64,000 nucleotides of DNA from Bacteroidota bacterium (GTDB taxonomy: Bacteria > Bacteroidota > Bacteroidia > Chitinophagales > Chitinophagaceae). This document shows positions 36,013-52,734 of the stretch, piece by piece. Position 1 is the stretch's first letter. Each line of letters starts with the position of its first letter. The DNA lies in assembly GCA_018267955.1 (NCBI GenBank), contig JAFDXL010000009.1:522717-586716 (forward strand). The letters are read 5' to 3'. The notes under the pieces were generated by a model. The model was not told the DNA's origin. It searched no databases and worked only from the letters and a program-made list of their open reading frames with translations. The translations under genes and the position numbers were made by a program.

Positions 36013-37233
36013 CTAATCTTTAAAATCCAGCAGTTTTGAGGAGAAATGCTTCTTTGTATCTTCCTCAAAGCTATCGAGGTATGCCTCGGTAGTGCTTTTA
36101 TCAGTGTGCCCCAGCGCTTCCTGTATAAACTCTACACTGGCACCGGAACGCTTTAATACCGTGCTAAAGGTATGTCTTGCCGTATAGGTAGTAATATCTT
36201 TTTCTATACCCAGCTCCCCTGCTATTATCCGGATATATTTATTAATGGTCTTGGTACATTGCTGGATAGCATTATATTCTTGCTCGGGTGTCATCCCCTG
36301 CTGCAGAATACCAAAAATATAATTATTGCCGTCGTTGTCCTTATTCCCCCACCGGTTAATTACTTCTATAGCTTGCGGAAGAAGGTGTATGGATATAGCT
36401 TTTGTGTTGGTTTTAGTAGATCGTTCCGTCTTAGCCCTTATGATATGCAGAAATTCGCCATCCCAGTTTTTAAACTTCAGGCGGGCAATATCTTTAATAT
36501 TAATACCATTACACAAGTAGCTGAATAGCCATAGATCCTTGCTCTTCTGCATTGTAGCCCCTTCGGGCGCACGATAATGCAACAACTTCTTGACATCTGC
36601 TATAGCGAGCGCCTTTTTTATATTCCTGCTGGATGGTATCTGGTATTTTCGTTTACCAAAAGGATAAAGCTCAGCAGCTATCGCCCCATCGGCAATAGCA
36701 AGGTTATAGATGGACCGTAAATTGCGCATATAGATGCCAACGGTAGTTAAGCTATTACCATTCGTAGTCATCCATTTTTCATACTCATTCAGGAAAGAAA
36801 CAGACACCAATTCAAAACTTATCCTCTTATTGTATTGTAACAGGCTGTTCAAACTGTTTTGATAAGATTTAGCCGTGCTTATTCGCCCCTCTCTGGTCAA
36901 TTGCTCAATATAATCGGTGTATTGATCAAACATTGCACCATTAATAGTCCGTTTTCTGGCATAGCGGGCTTCAAACAGCTCAAAACTGAAAGTCTTCAGT
37001 TCTTCAATAATCGTTGTCGCTTTACCCTGGCAACTACTAAGATATTCCTTCAAATTCCTTTCGGCTTTGGTCAGCTTTTTATCGTTGAGTTTTTCCCATG
37101 CATCCACCTTCATATTAACGCCTGTAGGATAGTATTTCTGTTGCCTATTGTGCGTTACCCTCACTTTCACGGGGAATGTACCATCCTGTTTTTGTCTTCG
37201 GGTATCTAGTATAACGGTGGTGGAAGGTTTCAT
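36013..37233 (-). CDS. Tyrosine recombinase (integrase) of the island
   Basis: 406 aa from the ATG at 37233. An N-terminal arm-binding domain (MKPSTTVILDTRRQKQDGTF) precedes a SAM-like core-binding domain (about 95-190) and a catalytic domain with R353 in TARHTF, H376 in LGHTD and nucleophile Y385 in EAYLDSF. The first catalytic Arg is not obvious in the LCNGINIKDIARL block; that variant occurs in some Bacteroidota integrases. It recombines the tRNA-Lys site. The start is directly preceded by two ATTTGCATAC repeats, suggesting autoregulation. It is convergent with hsdM. Confidence 0.92.
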   Translation of the reverse strand: MKPSTTVILDTRRQKQDGTFPVKVRVTHNRQQKYYPTGVNMKVDAWEKLNDKKLTKAERNLKEYLSSCQGKATTIIEELKTFSFELFEARYARKRTINGAMFDQYTDYIEQLTREGRISTAKSYQNSLNSLLQYNKRISFELVSVSFLNEYEKWMTTNGNSLTTVGIYMRNLRSIYNLAIADGAIAAELYPFGKRKYQIPSSRNIKKALAIADVKKLLHYRAPEGATMQKSKDLWLFSYLCNGINIKDIARLKFKNWDGEFLHIIRAKTERSTKTNTKAISIHLLPQAIEVINRWGNKDNDGNNYIFGILQQGMTPEQEYNAIQQCTKTINKYIRIIAGELGIEKDITTYTARHTFSTVLKRSGASVEFIQEALGHTDKSTTEAYLDSFEEDTKKHFSSKLLDFKD

Positions 37234-37254
37234 ATTTGCATACAATTTGCATAC
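37234..37254 (+). repeat. Right pair of ATTTGCATAC repeats at the integrase start
   Basis: Two copies of ATTTGCATAC with an 11-bp period, same orientation as the left pair at 25095-25115, adjoining the integrase ATG. Confidence 0.6.
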
Positions 37255-38183: not shown

Positions 38184-39035
38184 CTACGGCTTTAATCTTT
38201 CCACTACAAACTCTTCAAATGAATTTACTGCTGGGTTCTTATTATTATGTTTTAGTAATGATATATGGGTATCATCCAGTTTAGGCAGGTACTTATTTGC
38301 CCTGATTATTTTCAGTTCATCAGGTACCATATTACGTGGCAATACGGTAATGCCCATACCGGCCTTTACGGCCGCAACTGTACCAGCATAACTATGGCTT
38401 GAAAAAACTATCCGCCATTTTTTATTCAACTTTTCAAGAGATTGTATCGCCCTGGCACGATATACACATGGCTGTGGCGACAACACCAGCGGCACCGGTT
38501 CTTCATCATCAAAACGGTTAATATTGTTATTACCTACCCACTCTAATGCTTCAGACCAAACATCCATCCCATTTGGGAAATCCTCCGGCTTATTCATTTT
38601 AACAAGAACGAGGTCAAACTCTTTTTTCTTAAAACGTGCAAACAGGTTAAGTGTAAGATCACATTCAACATTAAGCATAATGCGGGGATGAAGTGAAGCG
38701 TATTCGGTCAGTACATCAGATAGAAAGACACTGGCGAAATCTTCGGGCAAGCCAAACCTTACCTGCCCCTGCAGTTCCGGGTGTTTAAACCGATCCATTG
38801 CATCACGGTTTAGCTGCACGATCTTTTTAGCATAGGTGAGCAGTATCTCCCCTTCTGAAGTCAGCGAAAGATGCCTTGCCCTTAAAAACAACGGCTTCCC
38901 AACCTGCGATTCAAGCTTGCTTATTTGCTGGCTTACTGCCGACTGCGTACGTGCAACTTTGTCGGCGGCACTTGTAAAGCTGCCTGTTTCTGCCACAGCA
39001 ATGAAACATTCCAGCGTAAGAGCATCAAAGGACAT
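38184..39035 (-). CDS. LysR family transcriptional regulator
   Basis: 283 aa. An N-terminal winged HTH (FIAVAETGSFTSAADKVART near 10-30, then QSAVSQQISKLE) and a C-terminal LysR substrate-binding domain. It is divergent from dabB with 95 bp between starts, the classic position for a LysR protein that controls the neighbouring operon. Repeated TTATTAGAA and ATTCTAA half-sites in that gap are candidate operators. The effector is unknown; in autotrophs LysR proteins (CbbR, CmpR type) control carbon uptake, but this one need not sense the same signal. Confidence 0.9.
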   Translation of the reverse strand: MSFDALTLECFIAVAETGSFTSAADKVARTQSAVSQQISKLESQVGKPLFLRARHLSLTSEGEILLTYAKKIVQLNRDAMDRFKHPELQGQVRFGLPEDFASVFLSDVLTEYASLHPRIMLNVECDLTLNLFARFKKKEFDLVLVKMNKPEDFPNGMDVWSEALEWVGNNNINRFDDEEPVPLVLSPQPCVYRARAIQSLEKLNKKWRIVFSSHSYAGTVAAVKAGMGITVLPRNMVPDELKIIRANKYLPKLDDTHISLLKHNNKNPAVNSFEEFVVERLKP

Positions 39036-39127
39036 TATTAGAAATTCTTATTTTACTTATTAGAATTAATCGTTTTTCTTATATGCAAACATAAAATACT
39101 TTTGCCTCATTCTAAACCAAATTCTAA
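39035..39127. promoter_or_regulatory. LysR-dabB intergenic region: -7 box and repeated half-sites
   Basis: A perfect -7 box TACTTTTG lies at 39097-39104 (plus), 26 bp before dabB. TTATTAGAA occurs at 39035-39043 and 39057-39065 (22 bp apart), and ATTCTAA at 39109-39115 and 39121-39127 (12 bp apart). These are the two strands of one half-site, TTAGAA, and could bind the LysR regulator. Confidence 0.5.
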
Positions 39128-39130
39128 AAA

Positions 39131-40474
39131 ATGAGGCAAAACCTGACCAATTTTACACAATTTTTTCACGCTGATACGCTCAGTTGGGTCATGATGGGGT
39201 TGGTTGCATTTGTCGCAATATCCATCGGATCATTCTCCATACGTTATCTGAAAGGAGACAGGAGGCAGAAAGCATTCTTCACCAATTTACTGGCCCTTGT
39301 TCTGGCAGTTTTTGTGATGGTCTGCGCAGATCATATACTCCTGCTCTTACTCTCATGGGCGGTAAGCAATACCTTACTGGCAAGGTTGATGCTGCATAAA
39401 CGTGAATGGGAAGCTGCAAGACAATCATCCATTCTTGCAATAAAGAATTTTGCCTTAGGCTTTATCTTCCTCGGAACTGCATTGTTCATATTATATACCA
39501 TCACCGGCGAAACTTCGATACAGGCAATACTGACAAGATCCATTGAATCAAAATGGATCATTGCAAGCAGCTTGTTCTTATTGCTGGCTGCAATGACGCA
39601 ATCAGCGCTATGGCCTTTTCATCGCTGGCTTACCAGCTCGTTAAACTCCCCTACCCCCGTATCTGCGATCATGCATGCGGGGCTGGTAAATGGTGGTGGT
39701 TTTCTACTGGCACGCTTTGCACCGATACTGGCCAGCCAACCTGCCGTACTGAATGTGATATTCATCATCGGCATTATTACCGCCTTGCTGGGAACATTAT
39801 GGAAACTCATGCAAAATGATATCAAGCGAATGCTTGCCTGCTCTACTATGGGGCAAATGGGCTTCATGATCGCACAATGCGGCCTTGGATTGTTCCCAGC
39901 TGCTGTTGCCCACTTGTGCTGGCACGGCTTATTTAAAGCATACTTATTCCTTGCATCAGGGTCTGCTGCAAAAGAAAAGCGCCTTGATCTCGACTATCCT
40001 CCATCATTCAAAGACTTTTCACTCGCGCTTATTTGCGGGGCTGTAGCTGCTTACATGTTCTCACTTACCAGTGGCAAACAAATACTGGCAACAGATACAA
40101 CATCCTTCCTTACGTTCCTTGCCATGATTGCCGGGGCGCAGTTTGCATTGCCTATCATCCGTGGTAAAGCAAAAGCCAGGCTACTGCTGGCTTTAACAGG
40201 CACCATCGTTACCGGCTCCTGTTATGGCCTTAGTGTGCATCTTGTTGAAAATATACTTGAGCCATTGGGGATTTGGCGACCACAACCATTAAATATCTTC
40301 CACTTGCTTGCTGCAGTATTACTGGCAGGATCCTGGCTGGCTATGATGTTCGCCCGTCCGTCCAAACAAAATATATACCCCGAATGGCTGCTAAAAAGAT
40401 ATGTACAAATGCTCAACGCAAGTCAACCACATCCACAAACAATAACTGCTCATCGAAATAAATATCAATTCTAA
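39131..40474 (+). CDS. dabB: DabB-type proton-conducting membrane subunit (inorganic carbon uptake)
   Basis: 447 aa, many membrane helices. It belongs to the NuoL/MrpA-type Proton_antipo_M family: WPFHRWLTSSLNSPTPVSAI near 160 and LWKLMQNDIKRMLACSTMGQ near 225 are typical. No other complex I or Mrp genes are nearby, and a DabA gene follows 20 bp later, so this is the DabB of a DabAB complex. DabB is thought to couple the proton gradient to CO2 hydration by DabA, accumulating bicarbonate in the cytoplasm. Confidence 0.88.
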   Translation: MRQNLTNFTQFFHADTLSWVMMGLVAFVAISIGSFSIRYLKGDRRQKAFFTNLLALVLAVFVMVCADHILLLLLSWAVSNTLLARLMLHKREWEAARQSSILAIKNFALGFIFLGTALFILYTITGETSIQAILTRSIESKWIIASSLFLLLAAMTQSALWPFHRWLTSSLNSPTPVSAIMHAGLVNGGGFLLARFAPILASQPAVLNVIFIIGIITALLGTLWKLMQNDIKRMLACSTMGQMGFMIAQCGLGLFPAAVAHLCWHGLFKAYLFLASGSAAKEKRLDLDYPPSFKDFSLALICGAVAAYMFSLTSGKQILATDTTSFLTFLAMIAGAQFALPIIRGKAKARLLLALTGTIVTGSCYGLSVHLVENILEPLGIWRPQPLNIFHLLAAVLLAGSWLAMMFARPSKQNIYPEWLLKRYVQMLNASQPHPQTITAHRNKYQF

Positions 40475-40494
40475 AGAGGCTAAAAATAAAAGCA

Positions 40495-42726
40495 ATGCTA
40501 AAAACAGAATTAATGGAAAATCCGGCTAAGATTGTACCGGTCAGCGCCCATCAGTCAATTGATACGGCCATTACAAAGAGCTGGTCAAAAATTGCACCTT
40601 TCTGGCCTCTTAAAAATCTGATCGCAGTCAACCCGATTGCTGGCTTTGAAGATTTAAAGTTTGAAGATGGATTAACACAGGCGTATGCTTATTTCCAGCA
40701 ACGCGAAATGCCGGCTGAAATGCAGCATGTAAACCGGGAAAGCATAAAATGGCTGCAAGCCTTTTTTGACCAGGGGCAATCAACTATAAAAATGCCGCTC
40801 AGCGAAAAAGGTTTACTGCAAAGTACTCTAACACTGCTGCGCTTTGATAAAGTGATCCACGGTAACGACAAGCAAAAAATACAATGGCTGAGGAAGCTGC
40901 CAAAGAATCCGGAAGCTATTATTGCCGAAACACTCTCACAACTTGGCATCCAGGCTCCCGAACAAGAACAGTTCCTTACACTGATGCTAACAACCCTTCC
41001 CGGATGGGCTGCCTATATCCGGTATCGTACCAATTGGGCGGATGCGCAAGACGCTGCACATCCGCACCCTGTTACACACACTGAATACCTGGCTTTCAGG
41101 ATGGTTTTAACTTACCTGGTATGGCCAAGTGCTAAAGAGTTACTAAGATGGCACAGAAAGGCTTTAGAACTTGCTGATACTGCTAGTACGTATAATGAGG
41201 TTGTCAGCAATGAAACTACATATCAGCAAACCTTATTAAAACAACTTGAAACGATACAGCCGCCTCAAAAAAAGACAAGAGCCGAAGCACAACTGGTGTT
41301 TTGTATTGATGTACGCTCAGAACCTTTCAGGCGTGCTTTGGAAGCTCAGGGCAACTATGAAACTTACGGCTTTGCCGGTTTCTTTGGGGTGCCTGTTGCC
41401 ATAGGCAATGCAGTAAGGGGAGAATCCTACGCTTCTTGCCCGGTTCTGCTAAAGCCGGCCTATAATGTGCAGGAAAAACCCAACCGCTCACATCAATCTT
41501 TCGAGGATGGATACACAAGACTTAAGGGTATCAAAAAGCTCTATCAGTCGCTTAAATATACTTTTACAACGCCGTTCAGCCTGGTAGAGACCATCGGTCC
41601 GGTAAGCGGTGTTTGGATGGGTATAAAGAGCTTATTGCCCAATAGCGCTGCCTCCATACAATCTGCCCTTAAAAGATCGATAGCACCTGATTATTCTGTA
41701 ACACCAGATATTAGCAGCATCCCACACAGCCAACAGGTAGCATTCGGCGCCGGTACCTTAAAAATGATGGGGCTGACGGAAAACTTTGCGCCGCTGGTTG
41801 TTTTCTGCGGCCACGGCAGTACGACAGAGAATAATGCATATGCAACCGCCCTGGATTGCGGCGCATGCGGAGGCCGACATGGTGCGCCCAATGCCCGAAT
41901 ACTTGCTACCATACTAAATAACAAAGAAGTAAGAAGTGAAATAAGGAAACTGGGTATTGACATTCCGGATGATACAACCTTCCTGGCTGCAGAGCACAAT
42001 ACTACAACCGATGAAGTTGAAATATACGATGAGCACACACCCGGCATCTTCGCTGCACCAATACAAGTGCTCAAACAAAGCCTGGCACTTGCCCAAAATC
42101 AAAACAGCCTATGGAGAAGTGCGGAAATGGGGGTACATACAAATGCACGGAAAGCAAGTAAAGTTACTTCCCTGCGTGCCAAAGACTGGGCCCAGGTACG
42201 ACCCGAATGGGGACTTGCCAGAAATGCAGCGTTTATCGTAGGGCCCAGGTGGCTTACGAAAGATATCAATCTCGAAGGCAGATCATTCCTACACTCTTAT
42301 GAATGGGAAAAAGATACGGATGGTTCATCACTGACAACAATCCTCACAGCGCCGATGGTAGTAGGTCAATGGATCAATGCTCAGTACTTCTTCTCCACTC
42401 TTGATAATGTGGCTTTTGGCGGGGGAAGTAAAATCACTAAGAACATAACCGGCAAAATAGGCATCATGCAGGGCAATGCCAGTGATCTTATGCATGGGCT
42501 GTCTTTGCAATCGGTCTACAAATCGGATGATGAACCATATCACAAGCCAGTAAGGCTGACGGTTATAGTTTATGCTCCAAAGGAAAGGATCGACCTAATA
42601 GTGAAGCAACACCAGATTCTCCAAAAACTGTTTGGAAATGGATGGGTACATATAATATGCTGCGATCCGATAGAACAGAAGAAATATCAGCTGAATCGTG
42701 ATTTGACCTGGACAGTTATCAAATAA
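40495..42726 (+). CDS. dabA: DabA inorganic carbon transporter subunit (DUF2309)
   Basis: 743 aa, at the short end for DabA. The zinc/active-site set is conserved: C270 and D272 in VFCIDVRSEPFRRALE, H440 in FCGHGS and C455 in ALDCGACGGRHG. The 15-residue spacing between the His and second Cys matches the characterised enzyme. It is a beta-carbonic-anhydrase-like subunit that, with DabB, makes vectorial CO2 hydration. In heterotrophs it supplies bicarbonate for biosynthetic carboxylases. Operon: dabB-dabA, with DUF6671 46 bp further on. Confidence 0.92.
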   Translation: MLKTELMENPAKIVPVSAHQSIDTAITKSWSKIAPFWPLKNLIAVNPIAGFEDLKFEDGLTQAYAYFQQREMPAEMQHVNRESIKWLQAFFDQGQSTIKMPLSEKGLLQSTLTLLRFDKVIHGNDKQKIQWLRKLPKNPEAIIAETLSQLGIQAPEQEQFLTLMLTTLPGWAAYIRYRTNWADAQDAAHPHPVTHTEYLAFRMVLTYLVWPSAKELLRWHRKALELADTASTYNEVVSNETTYQQTLLKQLETIQPPQKKTRAEAQLVFCIDVRSEPFRRALEAQGNYETYGFAGFFGVPVAIGNAVRGESYASCPVLLKPAYNVQEKPNRSHQSFEDGYTRLKGIKKLYQSLKYTFTTPFSLVETIGPVSGVWMGIKSLLPNSAASIQSALKRSIAPDYSVTPDISSIPHSQQVAFGAGTLKMMGLTENFAPLVVFCGHGSTTENNAYATALDCGACGGRHGAPNARILATILNNKEVRSEIRKLGIDIPDDTTFLAAEHNTTTDEVEIYDEHTPGIFAAPIQVLKQSLALAQNQNSLWRSAEMGVHTNARKASKVTSLRAKDWAQVRPEWGLARNAAFIVGPRWLTKDINLEGRSFLHSYEWEKDTDGSSLTTILTAPMVVGQWINAQYFFSTLDNVAFGGGSKITKNITGKIGIMQGNASDLMHGLSLQSVYKSDDEPYHKPVRLTVIVYAPKERIDLIVKQHQILQKLFGNGWVHIICCDPIEQKKYQLNRDLTWTVIK

Positions 42727-42772
42727 TGCGAAAAAATAGGCTGTCGATAAAGCAAGCACATTGAAGATAAGT

Positions 42773-43627
42773 ATGAATTTTTCAGATAGCATTTTCTTTC
42801 AGCGTGACATCCTGATTGCCACGAGCCACAAAAAGGAAGCAGCTATTGCACCTGTGCTCCGTGAAAGGTTCCAATCAAAGATCATAGTACCTGGAGGGTT
42901 CAACACTGATAGGTTTGGCACATTCACGGGCGAAATAGAAAGGATACATAGCCCGCTGGATGCTGCCAGGAAGAAGTGTGCAGTAGCATCTAAAACTTAT
43001 AATGCCGGCCTGGTTATTGCCAGCGAAGGATCCTTTGGTCCGCATCCTACCCTATTCTTTGTGCCGGCTGATGATGAAATATTACTATTGACTGATTATG
43101 AAAATGATTTAGAAATAGCAGTCAGAGAGATTTCAACACAAACAAATTTTTCCGGGAAGGAAGTAAAAACAGCCGAAGAGGTAAAAGATTTTGCGCAAGC
43201 TATTGGATTCCCTGATCACAAGATCATACTAAGAAAAGCTGAGCGGGACAACGCGCATATCGTTAAAGATATTGCTAATTGGGAAGAGTTGTTGATGACG
43301 GCTGAGATGTTTATGAATAGATATGATAGCTTCTTTATCGAAACGGATATGCGTGCTATGAATAACCCAACCCGTATGTCTGTAATAACCCAAGCTGCAA
43401 AAAAGCTTGCCGGGCTGATGGCGTCAAAGTGCCCGGGTTGCCAGGTGCCCGGATTTGATGTTGGCGAGGTAGTTCCCGGCTTGCCATGCAGCCTATGCAG
43501 TGCACCAACAAAAAGCACCTTGAAGAAAGTGTATGTCTGTAAAAAATGCAATTACAGTAAGGAAGTATATTATCCTAACAAAAAACGACACGAAGAGCCA
43601 ATGTTTTGTGATTGGTGTAATCCATAA
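42773..43627 (+). CDS. DUF6671 family protein
   Basis: 284 aa from the ATG at 42773; an in-frame TTG at 42761 is less likely. The N-terminal part has RDILIATSHKKEAAIAPVL, GGFNTDRFGTFTGEIER and SEGSFGPHPTLFFVP. The C-terminus has paired cysteines (CPGCQVPGF, CSLCSAP, CKKCNYS, CDWCNP) making two zinc-ribbon-like knuckles. I recognise this as DUF6671, whose function is not known. It sits between dabA and a threonylcarbamoyl-AMP synthase (5 bp downstream), so it belongs to the carbon cluster operon. Confidence 0.8.
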   Translation: MNFSDSIFFQRDILIATSHKKEAAIAPVLRERFQSKIIVPGGFNTDRFGTFTGEIERIHSPLDAARKKCAVASKTYNAGLVIASEGSFGPHPTLFFVPADDEILLLTDYENDLEIAVREISTQTNFSGKEVKTAEEVKDFAQAIGFPDHKIILRKAERDNAHIVKDIANWEELLMTAEMFMNRYDSFFIETDMRAMNNPTRMSVITQAAKKLAGLMASKCPGCQVPGFDVGEVVPGLPCSLCSAPTKSTLKKVYVCKKCNYSKEVYYPNKKRHEEPMFCDWCNP

Positions 43628-43632
43628 TAATT

Positions 43633-44604
43633 ATGATGACCTCATTTGAAGAAACACTAATAGGCAATGATATTGAACGGGCGGTACAATTGCTTGCTGC
43701 TGAAAAACTGGTTGCTATACCCACTGAAACTGTTTATGGGTTGGCCGCAAACATGTTTTCTGAATCAGCTGTTAAAGAAATATTTGCAGTGAAGCAACGG
43801 CCAGCCACCAACCCGCTTATCGTGCATTTACCGGATGTAGATAGTATCCATGAAATTGTAAAAGAGATACCTGCTGAGGCTAGAATACTTCTTTCAGCTT
43901 TTTCACCCGGCCCGTTGACCTTGTTACTTCCCAAAAATAACTCTGTACCTGATATAGTTACAGCTGGCTCACCCTATGTAGCGATTCGCATTCCCGGCCA
44001 TAAACTTGCTTTAGACTTATTACACAAGGTAAGCTTTCCGTTAGTGGCTCCAAGTGCAAACCCCTACACATACATAAGCCCTACAAGCGCAATGCACGTT
44101 AAAAAAATGCTGGAGGGTAAAATACCGTATATACTGGATGGAGGGCCTTGCCAAATGGGGCTTGAATCAACGATTATAGGTTTCCCCAATGGTTCGCCTG
44201 CAATATATAGGTTGGGTTCTATTTCCAGGGAAGAGATTGAAGACAAAATTGGTAAAGTCGAGCTGGCAATAAACGGTAAAGCCATTGCACCGGGTATGCA
44301 CCATAAACATTACAGCCCTGATACAAGATTGATACTTAGTGATGACCCGGATAAAGACTTTGTTCATTTCAGCAATTACAAGATCGGGGTTATTACCTAT
44401 AATAACTATTCTGAGCTCCTGCCTCATGAACAACAAGTGTTGCTATGTAAAAATGATGATTTTAAAACGGCAGCCGCAAATCTGTACGCTGCCATGCATA
44501 GCATGGACAATAAGAATTATGATTTGATCATTGCCAGGAAATTTCCAGGAACAGGAATTGGCTTGTCAATAAATGATCGTTTAAACAGGGCAAAGGAAAA
44601 ATGA
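43633..44604 (+). CDS. sua5: L-threonylcarbamoyl-AMP synthase, Sua5/YrdC type
   Basis: 323 aa, a YrdC domain (about 12-200; PTETVYGLAANMF, KQRPATNPLIVHL, SPGPLTLLL, APSANPYTYISPT) plus a C-terminal Sua5 domain (about 205-320, PGMHHKHYSP). It makes threonylcarbamoyl-AMP from Thr, ATP and bicarbonate, the first step of t6A tRNA modification. Its stop overlaps the dihydroorotase start (ATGA). It is probably one of two copies, since most genomes keep one elsewhere, but that cannot be seen here. Bicarbonate as a substrate ties it to dabAB. Confidence 0.88.
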   Translation: MMTSFEETLIGNDIERAVQLLAAEKLVAIPTETVYGLAANMFSESAVKEIFAVKQRPATNPLIVHLPDVDSIHEIVKEIPAEARILLSAFSPGPLTLLLPKNNSVPDIVTAGSPYVAIRIPGHKLALDLLHKVSFPLVAPSANPYTYISPTSAMHVKKMLEGKIPYILDGGPCQMGLESTIIGFPNGSPAIYRLGSISREEIEDKIGKVELAINGKAIAPGMHHKHYSPDTRLILSDDPDKDFVHFSNYKIGVITYNNYSELLPHEQQVLLCKNDDFKTAAANLYAAMHSMDNKNYDLIIARKFPGTGIGLSINDRLNRAKEK

Positions 44605-45947
44605 TGAAGCAACAGCTGCTTATAAAAAATGCGACAATTGTGAACGAAGGAAAGGCTTTTTCATCTGATATCTTTATTGAAAACGGCATAATAAACACAA
44701 TAGCGCCTAATATCAGAAAGGTAGTAAGCGATACTATTGACGCTGCAGGCCTATATCTGTTTCCCGGAATAATAGACCCTCATGTTCACTTCAGGGAACC
44801 CGGCTTAACTTACAAGGCAGATATTCATACAGAATCTGCAGCAGCAATAGCCGGAGGTGTTACATCCTATATGGACATGCCTAACACTATACCTAATGCT
44901 ACCAATAAAACGGAACTGGCTAAAAAATACGAATTAGCTGCCAATACATCATTTGCGAATTTCGGATTCTATTTCGGTGCAACAAGCGACAACCTGGATG
45001 AGATTACATCGCTGGATGCTAATGAATGCTGTGCAGTTACAGATGACGGGCTTTACTTTACCAACAAGGAATCATTACTGGTTGAGCAGCCTGACGTTTT
45101 AAGAAAAATATTAAGGGTATCGCCCAAACTGGTTGCTATACATAGTGAACTTGAGTCAGTTGTTAATGACAACTTAGAAAAAGCTATAGCTAAATATGGA
45201 GATAATATGCCTGTACACATGCACGCGCATATAAGAAGTGAAGATGCCTGTTACAAAGCAACAAAGCTGGCAACGGAGATTGCCGGGGAGAGCGGCAACC
45301 ACTTGCATATCTTACATGTGTCAACCGCTAAAGAGCTCGACTTATTTGAAAGCTACAAGGATATAACGAAGAAGAAAATTACTTCAGAGGTATGTATCCA
45401 TCATTTATATTTTTCGGAGGAGGATTACGATCATCTCGGGGCAAGAATTAAGTGGAACCCTTCTGTCAAATCTTATGCTGACAAAATTGGTTTATTAGAC
45501 GGGCTGCGCAATTACCAGGTTGATATTGTAAGCACTGATCATGCCCCGCATCTATTATCAGAAAAAGAACAGCACTATACAAAATCCCCGGGCGGCGGGC
45601 CTATGATACAGCATTCATTAGTAGCTATGCTGGAATTTGTAAAAACAGAAAAGTTATCCCTGGAAAGGATAGCAGAGGTTATGTGCCATAATGTAGCAGA
45701 ATTATATAAAATAGATGGCAGAGGATATATCAGAGAGGGATATTATGCGGACATAACCCTCGTTGACCTGGATGAAAAATGGCAGGTTCAAAAATCAAAT
45801 ATTTTATCAAAGTGCGGTTGGAGTGCATTTGAAGGAAGATATTTTTCATCGAAGATAAAGTACACGATCGTCAATGGAAATATTGCCTATAAAGATGGCA
45901 GAATAATCAGCGAGCCTTGCGGAGTTAGACTCAGACACAAATTATAA
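44601..45947 (+). CDS. pyrC: Dihydroorotase
   Basis: 448 aa, amidohydrolase fold. H61 and H63 in DPHVHFREPG and HILHVSTAKEL, then STDHAPH, are the metal and catalytic motifs. At the place where many Bacteroidota enzymes carry the carboxylated Lys (LFLGSST block), this one has TDDG (147-150), the form seen in Aquifex- and Bacillus-type enzymes where an Asp serves. It cyclises carbamoyl-aspartate to dihydroorotate in pyrimidine synthesis. It overlaps the Sua5 stop by 4 bp. Other possible roles: a related hydantoinase or allantoinase, but the FREPG form favours dihydroorotase. Confidence 0.85.
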   Translation: MMKQQLLIKNATIVNEGKAFSSDIFIENGIINTIAPNIRKVVSDTIDAAGLYLFPGIIDPHVHFREPGLTYKADIHTESAAAIAGGVTSYMDMPNTIPNATNKTELAKKYELAANTSFANFGFYFGATSDNLDEITSLDANECCAVTDDGLYFTNKESLLVEQPDVLRKILRVSPKLVAIHSELESVVNDNLEKAIAKYGDNMPVHMHAHIRSEDACYKATKLATEIAGESGNHLHILHVSTAKELDLFESYKDITKKKITSEVCIHHLYFSEEDYDHLGARIKWNPSVKSYADKIGLLDGLRNYQVDIVSTDHAPHLLSEKEQHYTKSPGGGPMIQHSLVAMLEFVKTEKLSLERIAEVMCHNVAELYKIDGRGYIREGYYADITLVDLDEKWQVQKSNILSKCGWSAFEGRYFSSKIKYTIVNGNIAYKDGRIISEPCGVRLRHKL

Positions 45948-45988
45948 GAAGTACACAAAATTTAAAACAATATAAAAACTAAACAAAA

Positions 45989-46270
45989 ATGACAAAGCAG
46001 GAAAATGAATTCAACCTTCTTAAAGGAACATTTACAGGCGCGGATACACGAGAAATACTGGTAACACTTTTAAGAGATAAAATGCGGTTTCACGGTCAAA
46101 AAAGTTTCAATCATGAAGTACGATTTGGTAAACCAGACCCTATTGCCGAGGAACGTATTCTAGAATTAAAGAAGACACTTGGCGAAGTCTTGAATTTTAT
46201 CGAAAACTATGACGAAAGCAAATTTGAGATCTATGCAGATGTTAAAGTAAAAATGCTGAGCAATGATTAA
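45989..46270 (+). CDS. Small conserved hypothetical protein
   Basis: 93 aa, acidic and helical, beginning MTKQENEFNLLKGTFTGADT. EILVTLLRDKMRFHGQKSFN and VRFGKPDPIAEERI are typical of short Bacteroidota proteins with this block order; no name is known to me. 41 bp after pyrC and on the same strand. Function unknown. Confidence 0.65.
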   Translation: MTKQENEFNLLKGTFTGADTREILVTLLRDKMRFHGQKSFNHEVRFGKPDPIAEERILELKKTLGEVLNFIENYDESKFEIYADVKVKMLSND

Positions 46271-46459
46271 ATAATGGTAATAAATGAGCCCAGATCCTAC
46301 CATTGACAACCTTTTCCCCTATTCGATAGTTAATAGCTATATATCATATTCATAAACATTAAATTATTGTATAAAATATCATAGTATAATCAATCTATTT
46401 ATGGCAATACCACCAACATATAATAATTTATTTAAATTAAATAGATTCCAATAAACAAT

Positions 46460-48154
46460 ATGGGAGACACTAAACGCACAAATATATTATTCAAGTTTTT
46501 TAACCTGATACGATTAGAAAAAGCGGAGATTTCTTCTATCTATTTCTATGCCATATTGGGTGGTTTAATACAACTATCATTACCATTAGGAATACAGTCT
46601 ATTATAAGCTTTGTATTAGGGGGTGCAATTTCCACGTCTTTAGTCTTATTGATTATAGTGGTGATACTTGGTGTGTTTGTAGGTGGTTTATTGAAAGTAA
46701 ATCAAATGAAGATCATCGAAAAGATCCAACAACAACTCTTTGTAAGATATTCATTTCAGTACGCCAACAATATTCCCCTCTTAAACCTGAAAGAGGTTGA
46801 CAATTATTACCTGCCGGAATTAACCAATCATTTTTTTGATACCATCTCATTACAAAAGAGTATTTCAAAGTTATTGCTTGATATACCTGCTGCTACCATT
46901 CAAATTCTTTTTGGGTTGATACTATTATCCTTCTATCATCCTGTGTTCATCTTTTTCGGCATACTGTTACTTTTTGTAGTGTATATGATTTTGCGGATTA
47001 CAGGCAACAAAGGCCTGGAGACCAGTGTCCAGGAAAGTGATTATAAATATAAAGTAGCAGCCTACTTACAAGAACTGGCCAGAGTTGTAAAAACTTTAAA
47101 GTTTTCCAGGAAGAACAAACTGCATATTGTAAAAACAGACAACTATGTTAGCGGATATTTAAACGCAAGGACTTCTCACTTCAAAATACTTCTATACCAG
47201 TATTGGACACTGATCATATTTAAGGTACTGGTAACAACTGCTATGTTGGTAGTTGGTGCATTTTTACTGGTAGATCAACAATTGAATATCGGACAGTTTA
47301 TTGCTGCTGAAATTGTAATTATCATGATCATAGACTCAGTAGAAAAGCTTATCATGAACCTCGATCAGGTTTATGATGTTCTCACTTCGGTTGAGAAAAT
47401 AACAAAAGTAACGGAGAAGCCTTTAGAAGAAAACGGAACAGTAAAACTGTCAAATAAAGAACCATTATCAATAAGGGCACAAAACATATCATTTGGTTAT
47501 TCAGATTCCGGCATTGTTTTAGACAACGTGAATTTTCAGATTAATCCCGGCGATAAAATATGCATTGAGGGGGCCTATAGTTCAGGTAAATCTACGCTCC
47601 TAAGATTGCTAAGTGGCGCTTACAGAAACTTTAATGGCATCCTTATGATAAACAATATACCCATATTGAATTACGACATGCTCTCATTGCGCCCCAGGAT
47701 AGGTGTGCTACTCAACATACAGGATATACTTAGCGGTACCATACGAGAAAATATTTGCCTGGGCGATGACTCGATTGACTATCACCGGTTAGATGCTGTT
47801 ACCGAAGTAACCGGGTTAAAGCCTTTTATTGACGGATTAAAAAAAGGATATGAAACAGAAATTCAACCTATGGGGCAACACTTGTCTGGACGAGTCATTA
47901 AAAAGATATTGCTATGCAGAGCATTAGTACATCGCCCGCAATTATTGTTGTTAGAAGAACCATGGTTGGGATTAGAAATGAATTATGCCGAGAATATTAA
48001 GCACTATTTGTTGAAATCACTTAAGGATACTACTGTGGTAGTAGTAACAAATGATAAATTATTTGCCGAACAGTGCGACCAGGTATTTGAGCTAGAGTCA
48101 GGGAAACTTAACATACTAAAGGCCAAAGATGAAAGAGATAAGGGAAATAATTGA
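46460..48154 (+). CDS. ABC exporter (membrane and ATPase domains fused), type I secretion-like
   Basis: 564 aa: six membrane helices (about 25-295) then a nucleotide-binding domain. There is no N-terminal C39 peptidase. Walker A is E-G-A-Y-S-S-G-K-S-T (370-379), which is sound. The signature is degenerate (LSGRV at 475-479, not LSGGQ), and Walker B reads LLLLEEP with Glu at 499 where Asp is usual. The catalytic Glu (500) is kept. It is the inner-membrane part of a three-gene export set with the HlyD (26-bp overlap) and TolC genes that follow. Cargo unknown. Confidence 0.85.
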   Translation: MGDTKRTNILFKFFNLIRLEKAEISSIYFYAILGGLIQLSLPLGIQSIISFVLGGAISTSLVLLIIVVILGVFVGGLLKVNQMKIIEKIQQQLFVRYSFQYANNIPLLNLKEVDNYYLPELTNHFFDTISLQKSISKLLLDIPAATIQILFGLILLSFYHPVFIFFGILLLFVVYMILRITGNKGLETSVQESDYKYKVAAYLQELARVVKTLKFSRKNKLHIVKTDNYVSGYLNARTSHFKILLYQYWTLIIFKVLVTTAMLVVGAFLLVDQQLNIGQFIAAEIVIIMIIDSVEKLIMNLDQVYDVLTSVEKITKVTEKPLEENGTVKLSNKEPLSIRAQNISFGYSDSGIVLDNVNFQINPGDKICIEGAYSSGKSTLLRLLSGAYRNFNGILMINNIPILNYDMLSLRPRIGVLLNIQDILSGTIRENICLGDDSIDYHRLDAVTEVTGLKPFIDGLKKGYETEIQPMGQHLSGRVIKKILLCRALVHRPQLLLLEEPWLGLEMNYAENIKHYLLKSLKDTTVVVVTNDKLFAEQCDQVFELESGKLNILKAKDERDKGNN

Positions 48155-49436
48155 ATCAACTTATAAGTATGACGGATTCAAGTCATTCGCCAATGTGTAC
48201 AGATCCGGTAAAAAAAGCCATGTACGCTACTGGTTTTATGGTCTACTAATATCTATGTTGTTGATATTAATACTTCCATGGACACAAAACATCAGGTCAA
48301 GAGGCTATGTTACCACACTAAAACAAGAACAACGCCCGCAGGAACTAAACTCTGTTATAGCCGGCAGGATAGTAAAATGGTATGTAAAGGAAGGTGATCA
48401 TGTTAACCCCGGAGATACGATTGTACAATTAGCAGAAATAAAAGATAACTACTTAGATCCTGAGCTTTTGCAACGTACCCAGGAACAGATAACAGCTAAA
48501 GCATCCGGTATTGATTTTTATAACACAAAGGTTGCCGCCACAGATGCTCAATTAAATGCCTTAGAACAGGCTATGAACCTGAAATTAAAACAATTGTCCA
48601 TGAAAATTATAAGCGACAGTATGGAGGCCGTTGCTGCCGCTAATGATTTAAAAATAGCAGACGCTCAATATAAACGTCAGCAAGTGATGCGGGATAGTGG
48701 CCTGGCATCTCTTGTTCAGTTAGAACAGCGGAATCAATACTATCAGTCTGCGCTGGCTAAAAAGACAAGTGCGGATATAAAGTTCATGAACACACGCACA
48801 GAACTATACCAGGTAAGACAAGAGTATGCAGAGAAAATGTTTAAAGCACAAGGTGAAAAAGCTGCAGCACAGAGTGAAATAGCCGCCGGGCAGGCAGAGT
48901 TAGCAAAATTGACTAACCAATATGCAAATTATAAAATCAGGAATGGCCTTTATTTTTTAATTGCACCCCAAAGCGGGCAGGTTGTCAAAGCAAGCAAATC
49001 AGGGATAAATGAAATATTGAAGGAAGGTGAAAAAATAGCTGAGATCGTACCCGATAAAATTGATTACGCTGTAGAGCTATATGTAAGGCCGGTAGACCTA
49101 CCCTTGCTATCGCAAGGGCAGCAAGTACGTTTTATGTTTGATGGCTTCCCGGCTATAGTATTCAGCGGATGGCCTGAGGCATCCTACGGTACGTTCAGTG
49201 GTAAAATTGTAGCTGTTGAGAATTCAGTTAGCAGCAATGGTAAATTCAGAGTATTGGTAGGTGAAGATACCGCGGTTAAAAAGTGGCCCAGGACATTAAA
49301 AATGGGTACCGGTGCACAAGGTATCGCATTACTGAAGAATGTACCTATTGGGTATGAACTCTGGCGCAATATCAACGGATTTCCTCCGGAGTATTATAAA
49401 GCAAATCCGAATGAAAATGAAAGCAGTAAGAAATAG
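48129..49436 (+). CDS. HlyD-family membrane fusion protein
   Basis: 435 aa. An N-terminal cytoplasmic stretch and one membrane helix (about 38-55) precede a biotinyl-lipoyl-like domain (RIVKWYVKEGDHVNPGDTIV), a long coiled coil (about 110-270) and a second half with FLIAPQSGQVVKASKSGINE. The layout is that of adaptors for type I secretion. It overlaps the ABC gene at the start and the TolC gene at the end. Confidence 0.88.
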   Translation: MKEIREIIESTYKYDGFKSFANVYRSGKKSHVRYWFYGLLISMLLILILPWTQNIRSRGYVTTLKQEQRPQELNSVIAGRIVKWYVKEGDHVNPGDTIVQLAEIKDNYLDPELLQRTQEQITAKASGIDFYNTKVAATDAQLNALEQAMNLKLKQLSMKIISDSMEAVAAANDLKIADAQYKRQQVMRDSGLASLVQLEQRNQYYQSALAKKTSADIKFMNTRTELYQVRQEYAEKMFKAQGEKAAAQSEIAAGQAELAKLTNQYANYKIRNGLYFLIAPQSGQVVKASKSGINEILKEGEKIAEIVPDKIDYAVELYVRPVDLPLLSQGQQVRFMFDGFPAIVFSGWPEASYGTFSGKIVAVENSVSSNGKFRVLVGEDTAVKKWPRTLKMGTGAQGIALLKNVPIGYELWRNINGFPPEYYKANPNENESSKK

Positions 49437-50814
49437 ATTGATATTCATATTATACCTTTTGGCCCTGACCTATAAAGCAATCGGGGCAGACGAAAAGTAT
49501 TTGTCTAAAAATGAGTTGATTAGTATCATCAGGCAATACCATCCGGTTGTAAAACAAGCTGACTTTACCATGCAACGCGCCAAGGCGCAATTATTACAAT
49601 CAAGGGGAAATTTTGACCCTGTGCTAATGGGTGAGGTGGGTCGTAAATCGCTGGATGGCAAAGTCTATTATAATTATTTCAACACCCAGATAACTATACC
49701 TACCTGGTATGGCCTGGATATTAAAGCAGGGATCGAAGAGGTATCAGGTGACAGGGTATCGCCCGAGGCAACTCTTGGCAAAACCAGTTATATAGGAGTA
49801 AAACTTTCAACAAACAACCTATTGTTTGATGCCAGGCGGGCAACTCTTGCACAGGCTAAGCTCTTTTACAGGCAAACGGAATCAGAAAAACAACTTGCTG
49901 CAAACAATGTAATCTTTGATGCACTTGTAGCCTATTGGAACTGGGTCAAAGAATACCAGAATTATACCATCATTACAAAAGCGATACAGGTAAATGAAGA
50001 ACGGCTGCAATTTGTACGAGTTGAGTTTGAGCAAGGCGCACGCCCGGCGATAGATACAACAGAAACATTATCTCAGCTGCAGGCATTTTATGTACAGCAA
50101 CAGGCAGCATTACTAGCATATATAAATGCCGGCATAGAACTATCCGGTTTTATGTGGTTAGAGGGAAATTATCCGTACCAGTGGGACGATAGTATTGTTC
50201 CTGATAGTAATGACCTGTATACAGAATATGATATACCTGCATTAAGTAAACTGCTTGATGCGGTAGATAACCATCCTAAATTGGCATCAGTAAGTTATAA
50301 AATCGGCAGTTTGAAAATTGATCAAAAATTGAAGTCGCAGTATTTCATACCCAAACTTTCTATAAACGCAAATATGTTAGGTAAAGGATATTATGAGCAA
50401 TTTTCCCTTAGTAGCACGCAGCTGGAAAACAATCATAAACTAGGTATCAGCCTAAACATGCCATTACTATACAGGGATGCAATCGGCGGATACAAAGCAT
50501 CGAAACTAAAAGTTCTTGAAATGCAGGCTGAGCAAAACAATTTGATACTACAACTGGAGATAAAAGTAAAAATGTATTACAACGAAGTTTTATCGCTTAA
50601 AAATCAGATTGAAACTTACACCAAGGCATATGAAAACTTTCAGCGATTATTCCTCGGTGAAAAATTTCGTTTCGATAACGGTGAAAGCTCATTATTTGTA
50701 TTAAACTCAAGAGAGAATAAAGTGCTGGAAGCATCGCAAAAATTAGTTGAACTAAAAACTAAATGGCATAAATCTTATGCAGCGCTTCTTTGGGCAAGTG
50801 GCCAACTAAACTAG
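49411..50814 (+). CDS. TolC family outer-membrane protein
   Basis: 467 aa from the ATG at 49411, where a signal peptide begins (MKMKAVRNRLIFILYLLALT); an earlier in-frame start at 49339 lies deep in the HlyD gene. The protein has long helical stretches and OEP-type repeats (LFDARRATLAQAKLFYRQTE, QFVRVEFEQGARPAIDTTET, FDNGESSLFVLNSRENKVLE). It forms the outer-membrane duct of the exporter. It overlaps the HlyD stop by 26 bp. Confidence 0.88.
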   Translation: MKMKAVRNRLIFILYLLALTYKAIGADEKYLSKNELISIIRQYHPVVKQADFTMQRAKAQLLQSRGNFDPVLMGEVGRKSLDGKVYYNYFNTQITIPTWYGLDIKAGIEEVSGDRVSPEATLGKTSYIGVKLSTNNLLFDARRATLAQAKLFYRQTESEKQLAANNVIFDALVAYWNWVKEYQNYTIITKAIQVNEERLQFVRVEFEQGARPAIDTTETLSQLQAFYVQQQAALLAYINAGIELSGFMWLEGNYPYQWDDSIVPDSNDLYTEYDIPALSKLLDAVDNHPKLASVSYKIGSLKIDQKLKSQYFIPKLSINANMLGKGYYEQFSLSSTQLENNHKLGISLNMPLLYRDAIGGYKASKLKVLEMQAEQNNLILQLEIKVKMYYNEVLSLKNQIETYTKAYENFQRLFLGEKFRFDNGESSLFVLNSRENKVLEASQKLVELKTKWHKSYAALLWASGQLN

Positions 50815-50863
50815 TTGTCTTTAAAGCATATCTTATGGGGAGCTTTTCCAATGAGCATAGTAA

Positions 50864-51019
50864 TCAGCGAACGGAAACATTTAAACCTCGATTTGCTATG
50901 TCTCCAATTCTATAGCATAAATATTTATATGACTTTAAAAGCATTACCTTATTGTCTTCCATAACATGTTTTACTAAATAAGATTTATCTCCTTCCGCTA
51001 TCACTATTTTATCAACCAT
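50864..51019 (-). CDS. Possible 51-aa protein upstream of purK
   Basis: ATG at 51019, stop at 50864. The protein begins MVDKIVIAEGDKSYLVKHVM and ends CYRIGDIANRGLNVSVR, with a normal residue mixture and AT-rich third positions like its neighbours. It is divergent from purK. No family is recognised; it may be real or chance. Confidence 0.4.
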   Translation of the reverse strand: MVDKIVIAEGDKSYLVKHVMEDNKVMLLKSYKYLCYRIGDIANRGLNVSVR

Positions 51020-51070
51020 AGGTAACCTTACATATAGAATAGCGTCATTACCGTTATAGGCGGTTTTTAT

Positions 51071-51078
51071 TACTTTTG
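51071..51078 (+). promoter_or_regulatory. -7 box TACTTTTG upstream of purK
   Basis: A perfect TAnnTTTG, 20 bp before the purK ATG. It suggests purK-purE has its own promoter after the TolC gene. Confidence 0.5.
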
Positions 51079-51098
51079 CACAAACATTAAAAAAACTA

Positions 51099-52235
51099 AT
51101 GAAAGAGTTGAAGATTGGTATACTTGGGGGAGGACAATTGGGTGCCATGCTTATAAGGCATGCTATAGATTTTGGATTGGATATATCTGTGATGGATAAA
51201 AGCCTCGATTCTCCCTGTGCCCGTTATACCTCATCTTTTTCCGTAGGTAACCCTATGAATTATCAGGACGTGCTGGATTTTGGCAAAAACCTGGATATCA
51301 TCACTATTGAAATAGAAGCAGTAAATACCAAAGCATTACGCGAATTATCAAATAATGGTGTAAAGGTATTCCCCTCCCCTGAAACAATAGAAATCATACA
51401 GAATAAACACAGTCAGAAAAAATTCCTGGAAAATGCCGGCATGCCTGTCGCCCCTTCTGTATTAGTAAATGCTAAGTCTGAGCTATATGGCCTGGTAAAT
51501 AATTTACCCGGATGTCTTAAACTATGCAGCAACGGGTATGATGGTAAAGGTGTAATGATAATAAGAAGCGAACAGGATATTGAGAAGGCCTTTGATGAAC
51601 CGAGTATATTAGAAGAATTAGTTGATATTAAGCATGAGATCTCGGTTATTGTAGCCAGAAACGAAAATGGACAAGTTGATTGCTATGATCCTGTAATGAT
51701 GATCTTTAACAAAGAACGAATGCTCCTGGATTACCAGCTATGTCCCGCCGATATATCTGTTGAAACGGCAGCTGAAGCACGCAATATTGCTATCAAAACA
51801 GCTGAGGCGCTTAAGCTTACAGGTATACTTGCCGTTGAAATGTTTATAACCGGTGATGGCAAGTTATTGGTGAATGAACTGGCGCCCCGCCCCCATAACA
51901 GCGGGCACCATACTATTGAGGCATGTGTAACGTCTCAATATGAACAATTGCTAAGAGTAATAATGGGTTGGCCGCTGGGATCTACAAAATTAACAAGTAG
52001 CAGTGTAATGATGAATGTACTAGAGCCTGCAGCATCCGAAAAAAAGAACATGGGAAAAGCCTTAGAATCAATACTAGGGTTAGAGGATGTTCACTTGCAC
52101 TGGTATGGTAAGAAGGGAGGATCTGAAGGAAGGAAAATGGGGCATATTACCATAAATGATGATACAATTGAAAAGGCATTGTTAAAAGCAGCAACGATTC
52201 GTAATATTTTAAAAGCAAAACATGAAGAAAAATAA
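51099..52235 (+). CDS. purK: 5-(carboxyamino)imidazole ribonucleotide synthase
   Basis: 378 aa, ATP-grasp fold: N-terminal [47 protein letters not shown], and [19 protein letters not shown] for the metal site. It makes N5-carboxyaminoimidazole ribonucleotide from AIR, ATP and bicarbonate in purine synthesis. The start of purE overlaps its stop by 14 bp. It is on the same strand as the dab cluster and, like Sua5, uses bicarbonate. Confidence 0.95.
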
Positions 52236-52734
52236 AGTAGGCATCATTATGGGTAGCAAATCAGATGCACCTATAATGGAACAGGCAGCAATTGTTCTTA
52301 AAAAATTCGGCGTTGATTATGAGTTTGCCGTTGTATCAGCGCATAGAAGTCCGGATTGGCTTTTTGAATATGCGAAAGGGCTGGAGGCAAATAATATTAA
52401 AGTGGTAATAGCCGGCGCAGGTGGCGCAGCGCATTTGCCGGGTATGACGGCAGCACTTTCTATTGTGCCTGTTATCGGAGTTCCCATAAAGTCTTCCAAT
52501 TCTATTGAAGGTATAGACTCTTTACTTTCAATAGTTCAGATGCCTAATGACGTGCCGGTAGCAACAGTGGCTATAAATGCTGCGCATAATGCGGCTGTAC
52601 TTGCAGTGCAGATGCTTGCTATTGACGATGAGGATCTAAAGGAAAAATTAAAGACACTCAAGATCGACAATACGAAGAAAGTCGATCAGCAGAATAAAGA
52701 ACTAATGGCTGAATCCTTAAAGAAAGACGCGTAA
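52222..52734 (+). CDS. purE: N5-CAIR mutase
   Basis: 170 aa, the usual length for class I Pur[27 protein letters not shown] (active-site His) and [17 protein letters not shown] are the substrate loops. It converts N5-CAIR to CAIR after PurK. It is coupled to purK by a 14-bp overlap and followed by a strong terminator. Confidence 0.96.

Follow-up and report, generated by a model that had tools for sequence, protein, structure and literature searches.

Gene organization of the locus

We analyzed a window of 64,000 nucleotides (positions 522,717 to 586,716 of contig JAFDXL010000009.1, GenBank assembly GCA_018267955.1) from a bacterium of the Chitinophagaceae, in which genes for a LysR-type regulator, a DAB inorganic-carbon pump and a DUF6671 protein lie together with nucleotide and tRNA genes. 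The genome (G000 below) comprises 4.18 Mb in 10 contigs and is 98% complete. A first-pass annotation had described the region as a low-CO2 gene cluster centered on bicarbonate; its gene list, coordinates and strands were all borne out by the open reading frames (ORFs) and family matches, confirming that the cluster is real. The features are:

38184–39035, minus strand: LysR-type regulator (PF00126 and PF03466), divergent from dabB
39036–39130, no strand: LysR-dabB intergenic region with the conserved ATTAGAAATTCTTAT block (aligned in four loci), a putative LysR operator
39131–40474, plus strand: dabB, coding for the membrane subunit of the inorganic-carbon pump DAB (Proton_antipo_M), adjoining dabA
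40495–42726, plus strand: dabA, zinc subunit of DAB (PF10070, 747 bits)
42761–43627, plus strand: DUF6671 protein (PF20376, 294 bits), with a predicted ITPase/YjjX-like domain and a C-terminal region
43633–44604, plus strand: sua5, two-domain threonylcarbamoyl-AMP (TC-AMP) synthase with bicarbonate as substrate (PF01300, YrdC; PF03481, Sua5_C)
44601–45947, plus strand: dihydroorotase (DHO) without the carboxylated-lysine position (PRK09236, 588.7 bits, curated cut-off 535)
45989–46270, plus strand: p93, a small island protein of 93 aa, predicted strand-helix-helix-strand
46460–48154, plus strand: ABC exporter permease/ATPase, type I secretion-like (PF00005 and PF00664), loose member
48129–49436, plus strand: HlyD membrane-fusion protein (PF13437), loose member
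49339–50814, plus strand: TolC-like outer-membrane protein (PF02321, OEP), loose member
51099–52235, plus strand: purK, N5-CAIR synthetase using ATP and bicarbonate (TIGR01161)
52222–52734, plus strand: purE, class I-type N5-CAIR mutase, intact copy (TIGR01162)

Spacing in the window ORFs is tight from dabB through dabA, DUF6671, sua5 and DHO to p93, ranging from overlap up to 41 bp. A gap of 189 bp separates p93 from the exporter, whose three genes overlap one another, and a gap of 284 bp separates the exporter from the overlapping purK and purE. The layout thus amounts to one operon-like block, from dabB to p93, plus two possible units. The numbers of promoter-like and terminator-like sites differed by less than one standard deviation from those in shuffled sequences.

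DUF6671 is the hub of the island

Scanning genome contigs with the DUF6671 protein of the window yielded 127 related stretches; the 80 best were taken further. Proteins within six genes of DUF6671 were then clustered, without preselected families, at 79 fetched loci (L100 was dropped) and in the window, giving 80 contexts. The loci, picked for their resemblance to the window, are interrelated, so that the resulting counts do not represent independent events. LysR was present in 51/80 contexts, the p93 family in 37 (46 proteins) and Sua5 in 32, although that of L105 has the YrdC domain alone and lies on the opposite strand. A 480-aa cluster, one representative of which is an NADP-isocitrate dehydrogenase (IDH), occurred in 30 contexts, and a 320-aa cluster in 29, with one representative identified as Sbt_1, the Na-dependent bicarbonate transporter SbtA. 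Lower counts were obtained for DabA (19/80), DabB (18/80), DHO (11/80), PurE (7/80), PurK (7/80, the PurK of L077 being merely a 25% ATP-grasp match) and carbonic anhydrase (CA; 5/80, some on the opposite strand, one representative being Pro_CA). The exporter families were found in 11 (ABC), 11 (HlyD) and 8 (TolC) contexts.

The hub of the island is therefore DUF6671 and not DabAB; DabA co-occurs only weakly with DUF6671 at the genome level (p = 0.07). Neighborhoods of DUF6671 with Sua5, with DHO and with PurK-PurE recur without dab in the Bacteroidota. Three Mucilaginibacter islands (L041–L043) have the order LysR-DabB-DabA-DUF6671-Sua5-p93; their PurK-PurE lies elsewhere in the genome, and DHO and exporter are not in the island. 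In the Legionellales, LysR-DabB-DabA-DUF6671 is followed by PurE-PurK or Sua5; the order in Legionella loci is LysR-DabB-DabA-PII-like-DUF6671-PurE-PurK, and in a metagenome-assembled genome (MAG) of the Coxiellaceae (L114) LysR-DabB-DabA-DUF6671-Sua5 precedes a SulP-carbonic anhydrase fusion. A verrucomicrobial MAG shows the order LysR-DUF6671-SbtA. The idea that IDH and DabAB strictly exclude one another was dropped, since L182 carries both nearby.

Two further neighbors were seen. A small protein, PII-like (PF00543) by the representative scanned, that of L112, stands directly before DUF6671 in six Legionellaceae loci (L112, L115, L117, L118, L119 and L120), and in a cyanobacterial MAG, CbbX (L101:1627-2571; TIGR02880, below its cut-off) adjoins DUF6671.

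A sample of 248 genomes, drawn evenly from the order to which the window belongs, contained DabA in 36, DUF6671 in 27, Sua5_C in 134 and SbtA in 47 genomes (45 exceeding the cut-off). SbtA was present in 14/27 genomes with DUF6671 vs. 33/221 others (p = 4e-5), and the two genes lay at most 5 kb apart in 10 genomes, compared to 0.05 expected. For the 26 DUF6671 genomes other than the window's, the surroundings (402 kb in total) were fetched and compared with 20 control regions (318 kb), 19 from the same 26 genomes and one from the window genome. These were centered on the housekeeping DHO (16), Sua5 (3) or PurK (1), so that four are built around Sua5 or PurK. Four families were enriched near DUF6671 and absent from the control regions: IDH (15/26 vs. 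0/20, p = 1.5e-5), LysR (11/26, p = 6e-4), SbtA (10/26, p = 0.0013) and p93 (9/26, p = 0.003). PurE was found in neither set (0/26 and 0/20). Five of the 27 DUF6671 matches in the order are partial (L143–L147), which suggests that DUF6671 has been lost repeatedly within it.

Island dihydroorotases of the window type lack a conserved active-site lysine

The DHO of the window belongs to PRK09236, and reads TDDGLYF where carboxylysine-type enzymes have their lysine. The same holds for all 15 island DHOs of the window type (11 from the DUF6671 contexts, including the window, and 4 from the order sample): lysine is absent in 15/15, and [TS]DDGLYF is found instead. Housekeeping DHOs, taken as a second copy in the window genome (C6, 47% identical to the island copy) and the 30 best-scoring found in the 248 genomes, retain it in 31/31 cases, in the motif G-x-K-[IV]-F-M-G-S-S. 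The housekeeping lysine aligns with the K of the dihydroorotase 2gwn (P. gingivalis); by homology, it would be the carboxylated, metal-bridging lysine.

According to excerpts of PMC3880350, the place that the carboxylated lysine has in the E. coli and CAD enzymes is occupied by Asp in DHO of A. aeolicus and S. aureus, with the lysine shifted upstream of this Asp; the A. aeolicus enzyme, with Asp153, is mononuclear. This arrangement matches the island DHOs, as the alignment of the window DHO places an Asp downstream of the lysine position and the island T-D-D-G aligns with F-T-D-D-G of A. aeolicus. The island enzymes differ from the Aquifex/S. aureus type in that they branch inside the sampled lysine-bearing Bacteroidota DHOs: 14 of them (the partial L069 was omitted) form one clade with support 1.0 within the 31 lysine-bearing ones. 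From this nesting, the loss of lysine looks like an independent event. We propose that the metal site of the island DHO needs no CO2-derived carboxylysine. DHO would then belong to the island because its active site is without the lysine to which CO2 is added in related enzymes; this seems a better reason than the bicarbonate-derived carbamoyl group of its substrate, given in the first-pass annotation, which we set aside in favor of the lysine evidence.

In genome G081 one PRK09236 match is present among the matches listed, and a lysine-free DHO (L203) was found, which is therefore presumably its only DHO of this family. At L105, an amidohydrolase with the look of a class II DHO stands directly before DUF6671.

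PurE and PurK copies in genomes with and without the island

PurE was sought in 22 hand-picked genomes and PurK (E ≤ 1e-30) in 78, those 22 included. The window PurK contains ATP-grasp and the window PurE falls in the N5-CAIR mutase family, in line with the class I route. PurK is the only copy found in G000. PurE has two loci, one intact beside PurK and one remnant (G000:C10:947565-947858, L231), a 109-aa ORF without the SAHR region. The remnant shares its genomic setting with the intact purE of G197, a genome of the same genus without PurK and without dab or DUF6671 matches, whose single PurE of 151 aa lies between SDR and phoH (neighbors as read).

An intact PurK-PurE pair lies within 8 kb of DUF6671 in 7/22 genomes (G000, G252, G255, G278, G279, G282 and G286). 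Six of these have no other PurK and a second PurE elsewhere (the remnant in G000); the exception, G286, has two full PurK-PurE pairs. G270 has PurK-PurE about 13 kb from DUF6671, plus a second PurE. Nine genomes have one PurE, with PurK farther off or no island: G209 and G237 (both without island, the PurK of G237 being just under the cut-off), G248–G250, G268 (with its PurK on the same contig, at a distance of 31 kb) and G287–G289; in G268 and G288 another PurK-like match falls below the cut-off. Neither gene was found in G281, G284 and G285. In the Legionella genome G283 (L117), the island purE is broken by stops, and one intact PurE but no PurK was found.

The stand-alone PurE could not be assigned to class II by sequence: in a check of L222 and L229 it was closer to class I (8e-38 to N5-CAIR mutases vs. 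9.5e-11 to 3rg8, which we take to be a class II AIR carboxylase), and its PurK-free state is read from genome content. Excerpts of a study on archaea interpret the absence of PurK alongside a class I-like PurE as reflecting CO2 availability (PMC3261824). Together with this reading, the copy pattern fits PurK-PurE as a low-CO2 supplement, although it forms a separate unit in the window, where its membership in the cluster is weaker.

DAB pump, Sua5 and additional TC-AMP synthases

The window genome has one DabA gene, a PF10070 member beside a Proton_antipo_M membrane subunit, as in the DAB family. For DAB2, zinc ligands and an Asp-Arg dyad are given as C351, D353, R355, H524 and C539 (PMC13144422, in part). 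Window DabA keeps Cys-x-Asp-x-Arg at 270–274 (C270, D272, R274) as well as H440 and C455, which are 15 residues apart, as are H524 and C539 of DAB2.

The window Sua5 has both YrdC and Sua5_C domains, and its closest solved chain is 6f87. By closest solved chain, the three YrdC-domain genes of the genome are Sua5-like, YrdC/TsaC-like (190 aa) and YciO-like (206 aa). At least three YrdC-domain matches were present in 28/39 other genomes with DUF6671 loci, some of HypF size; few species carry both TsaC and Sua5, as stated in part of a survey (PMC10321239). The first-pass annotation implied second copies of the genes for Sua5, DHO, PurK and PurE, for which the outcome is mixed. The second DHO and the further YrdC genes show that island DHO and Sua5 have housekeeping counterparts; PurK is single and the other PurE a remnant. 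Synthesis of t6A consumes bicarbonate, with human Km values of 13 mM for TC-AMP and 31 mM for mitochondrial t6A, and mitochondrial t6A dropped without bicarbonate (excerpts of PMC5951830). Given these data, an additional TC-AMP synthase within a low-CO2 set appears reasonable.

The LysR regulator and its putative operator

The window LysR is 80–86% identical to the LysR of the three Mucilaginibacter islands and 54–65% identical to that of seven Legionellales islands. The 95 bp between LysR and dabB are conserved with the three Mucilaginibacter loci and include the ATTAGAAATTCTTAT block, the putative operator. We compiled 45 LysR intergenic regions and built a 28-base consensus by eye from those other than the window/Mucilaginibacter dab-type. 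Allowing up to 8 mismatches, it was found in 26/33 source intergenics vs. 3% of shuffles, a comparison that is circular for those loci. Beyond the LysR intergenics, 573 kb of source loci held five more matches with up to 7 mismatches: one 75 bases before CA-SbtA (L049), two approximately 100 bases before dabB (L099 and L103) and two elsewhere. The 26 held-out loci contained nine matches, six just upstream of IDH and three elsewhere, vs. none in 25 control regions (400 kb). We infer that the regulon of the island LysR is CO2-responsive.

We also looked in the window for further dab-type LysR sites, but rejected the idea of one before the exporter or before purK: there were seven matches, two of which are the site itself, vs. 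5.6 expected, and none at these positions.

DUF6671 and p93 proteins

An alignment of 66 DUF6671 sequences contains 32 invariant columns, including eight Cys, and the C-terminal region carries four CxxC pairs. Compared with solved chains, the sequence gave weak matches only, with a best E of 0.023; these were zinc-binding chains together with a small number of other ones. The predicted model (pLDDT 94.9) has an ITPase-like fold; by Foldseek it matches YjjX (E 1.4e-4, prob 1.00, TM 0.52 by target length and 0.32 by query). Human ITPA and RdgB come next, and the matches to Maf and HcgB are weaker. As a guess, DUF6671 might clear or sense a nucleotide.

No Pfam or NCBIfam family matched p93. Its model (pLDDT 92.2) had no match in the PDB at E ≤ 0.001. 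Among the papers listed in searches of a CC-licensed library, nothing turned up on DUF6671 or on such an island.

Possible horizontal acquisition of the island

A tyrosine recombinase gene of the phage integrase family lies at 36013–37245 (minus strand), 0.9 kb before the LysR gene. LysR is 86% identical to that of a Mucilaginibacter island and HlyD 70% identical to that of a Chitinophagaceae MAG, which together with the nearby recombinase suggests that the island was acquired horizontally. Between tolC and purK, an antisense ORF (50864–51148, minus strand) contains a stretch that by eye resembles the TetR gene L050:12277-12963, which sits near the same exporter; it looks like a TetR remnant.

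A probable low-CO2 island of a heterotroph

We consider it likely that the block from LysR to p93, probably together with purK-purE, is a low-CO2 island of a heterotroph, with a CO2 response that would be exerted through LysR. The low-CO2 interpretation of the first-pass annotation gains support in this form from the unselected neighbor counts (SbtA, CA, DabAB) and the paralogue tests; the exporter and the PurK-PurE of the window are looser parts. A SulP-carbonic anhydrase fusion and CbbX, each at one locus, add to the support.

In the proposed mechanism, LysR would sense a shortage of inorganic carbon and switch the island on. A pump, DabBA in the window and SbtA, CA or the SulP-carbonic anhydrase fusion in relatives, would raise cytosolic bicarbonate. 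The lysine-free DHO would stand in for a step that fails at low CO2, through a metal site without a carboxylysine made from CO2; PurK and PurE would replace a PurE that works without PurK, and the extra Sua5 would support the bicarbonate-dependent t6A step. DUF6671, with its zinc-ribbon-like cysteines, and p93 would act as core helpers, and perhaps, more speculatively, clean up or sense a nucleotide that accumulates when purine and pyrimidine synthesis stalls. What we observe directly are the gene identities, their recurrence, the missing lysine, the copy pattern of PurE and PurK and the DNA motif common to relatives; the regulation by CO2, the enzyme activities and the roles of DUF6671 and p93 we infer.

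Several observations weigh against this interpretation. The compared loci, picked by likeness to the window, lack phylogenetic independence, and some MAG contigs may have been assigned to the wrong genome. The islands of the nearest relatives (L041–L043) are without DHO, PurK-PurE and exporter. In the order sample, DabA was found in 7/27 DUF6671 genomes vs. 29/221 others, and the co-occurrence of two DHO matches with DUF6671 reached p = 0.026. Compared with the control regions, there was no significant enrichment of Sua5 (3/26 vs. 4/20), CA (4/26 vs. 0/20, p = 0.09), DabA (1/26 vs. 0/20), PurK (0/26 vs. 2/20), or HlyD and TolC (2/26 each vs. 0/20). Just 5/15 held-out IDH loci had the LysR motif upstream of IDH, and the Bacteroidota LysR motif is without a match in the window, where the dab-type block alone is present. 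A class II (E. coli-type) DHO in a gloeobacterial MAG (L105:8854-9999) keeps the lysine, as judged by eye. The housekeeping set consists of the best-scoring DHOs only, and 17 genomes without DUF6671 carry at least two PRK09236 matches, with the lysine read in the top-scoring copies only. Finally, cytosolic t6A of human tRNA-Ile was not lowered by bicarbonate loss in the experiments excerpted from PMC5951830.

The exporter is also a weaker member: its ABC gene, near DUF6671 in 11/80 contexts, is not above control (4/26 vs. 3/20), no dab-type motif lies upstream and the 189-bp gap sets it apart.

Among the alternatives, a plain DabAB bicarbonate-supply operon, similar to MpsAB, that happens to lie beside unrelated nucleotide and tRNA genes is unlikely but the most serious. 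For S. aureus to grow in atmospheric CO2, its DabAB homologue MpsAB is crucial on its own (PMC6689103, in part), and the 284- and 189-bp gaps set PurK-PurE and the exporter apart. Against this, the pairings of DUF6671 with Sua5, DHO and PurK-PurE recur in Bacteroidota without any dab, the entire series from LysR to Sua5 or PurE-PurK recurs in Legionellales, and all 14 island DHOs in the tree fall into a single clade and carry the same active-site change. It is highly improbable that the locus serves mainly against nucleotide stress, with DUF6671 as a house-cleaning NTP pyrophosphatase, with DHO, PurK-PurE and Sua5 restoring nucleotide and tRNA pools and with carbon transport as a secondary matter: the ITPase-like predicted fold and the pyrimidine, purine and tRNA genes agree with it, but SbtA, DabA and CA are among the neighbors, and what the replacements share is a dependence on CO2 or bicarbonate, not on nucleotides in general. 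Least probable of all is a zinc- or metal-starvation set (Zur regulons are known to include paralogues of DHO), in which loss of the lysine may mean a change from two metals to one, as in the mononuclear A. aeolicus enzyme (PMC3880350), and with which the eight invariant Cys of DUF6671 would agree; we set it aside because the adjoining regulator is LysR, with no Zur gene among the identified recurrent neighbors, and because those neighbors are inorganic-carbon transporters, CA, IDH, PurK and Sua5, DabA and CA themselves being zinc-using.

A low-CO2 island would mean that ordinary heterotrophs are under selection from a lack of CO2, and that this stress suffices to build islands in distant lineages, with the carboxylated lysine of DHO, the PurE step and t6A tRNA modification as weak points. 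Loss of the CO2-derived DHO lysine would be a molecular signature of low-CO2 selection, the island might serve as a genomic marker of CO2-limited niches, and DUF6671 and p93 would have a first hypothesis. The island DHO should then function in CO2-free buffer, where the housekeeping DHO would fail. Whether many heterotrophs, among them Bacteroidota, Legionellales and perhaps part of the Verrucomicrobia and Cyanobacteria, possess a CO2-starvation regulon that pumps bicarbonate and swaps in CO2-sparing paralogues, with DUF6671 at its core, is a proposition for which we see the balance as even.

Comparison with known systems

DAB homologues are known from heterotrophs (excerpts of PMC13144422), and like DAB and MpsAB the window has a dabB-dabA pair, with the zinc-site residues of PF10070 retained. 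The window pump differs in its company of DUF6671, Sua5, a lysine-free DHO and PurK-PurE. DUF6671 resembles the ITPase-like superfamily (HAM1/RdgB, YjjX, Maf, HcgB) in the predicted fold of its N-terminal domain, and differs by the extra C-terminal region with its CxxC pairs. The placement of a LysR regulator next to bicarbonate transporters and CA resembles the carbon-concentrating gene sets of cyanobacteria and chemoautotrophs, with their SbtA, CA and LysR-type CcmR/CmpR; here, the proposed beneficiaries are ordinary biosynthetic steps. There is also a likeness in logic to Zur-type regulons with metal-free paralogues, where starvation swaps demanding enzymes for sparing ones, with the difference that the scarce factor here would be CO2 or bicarbonate.

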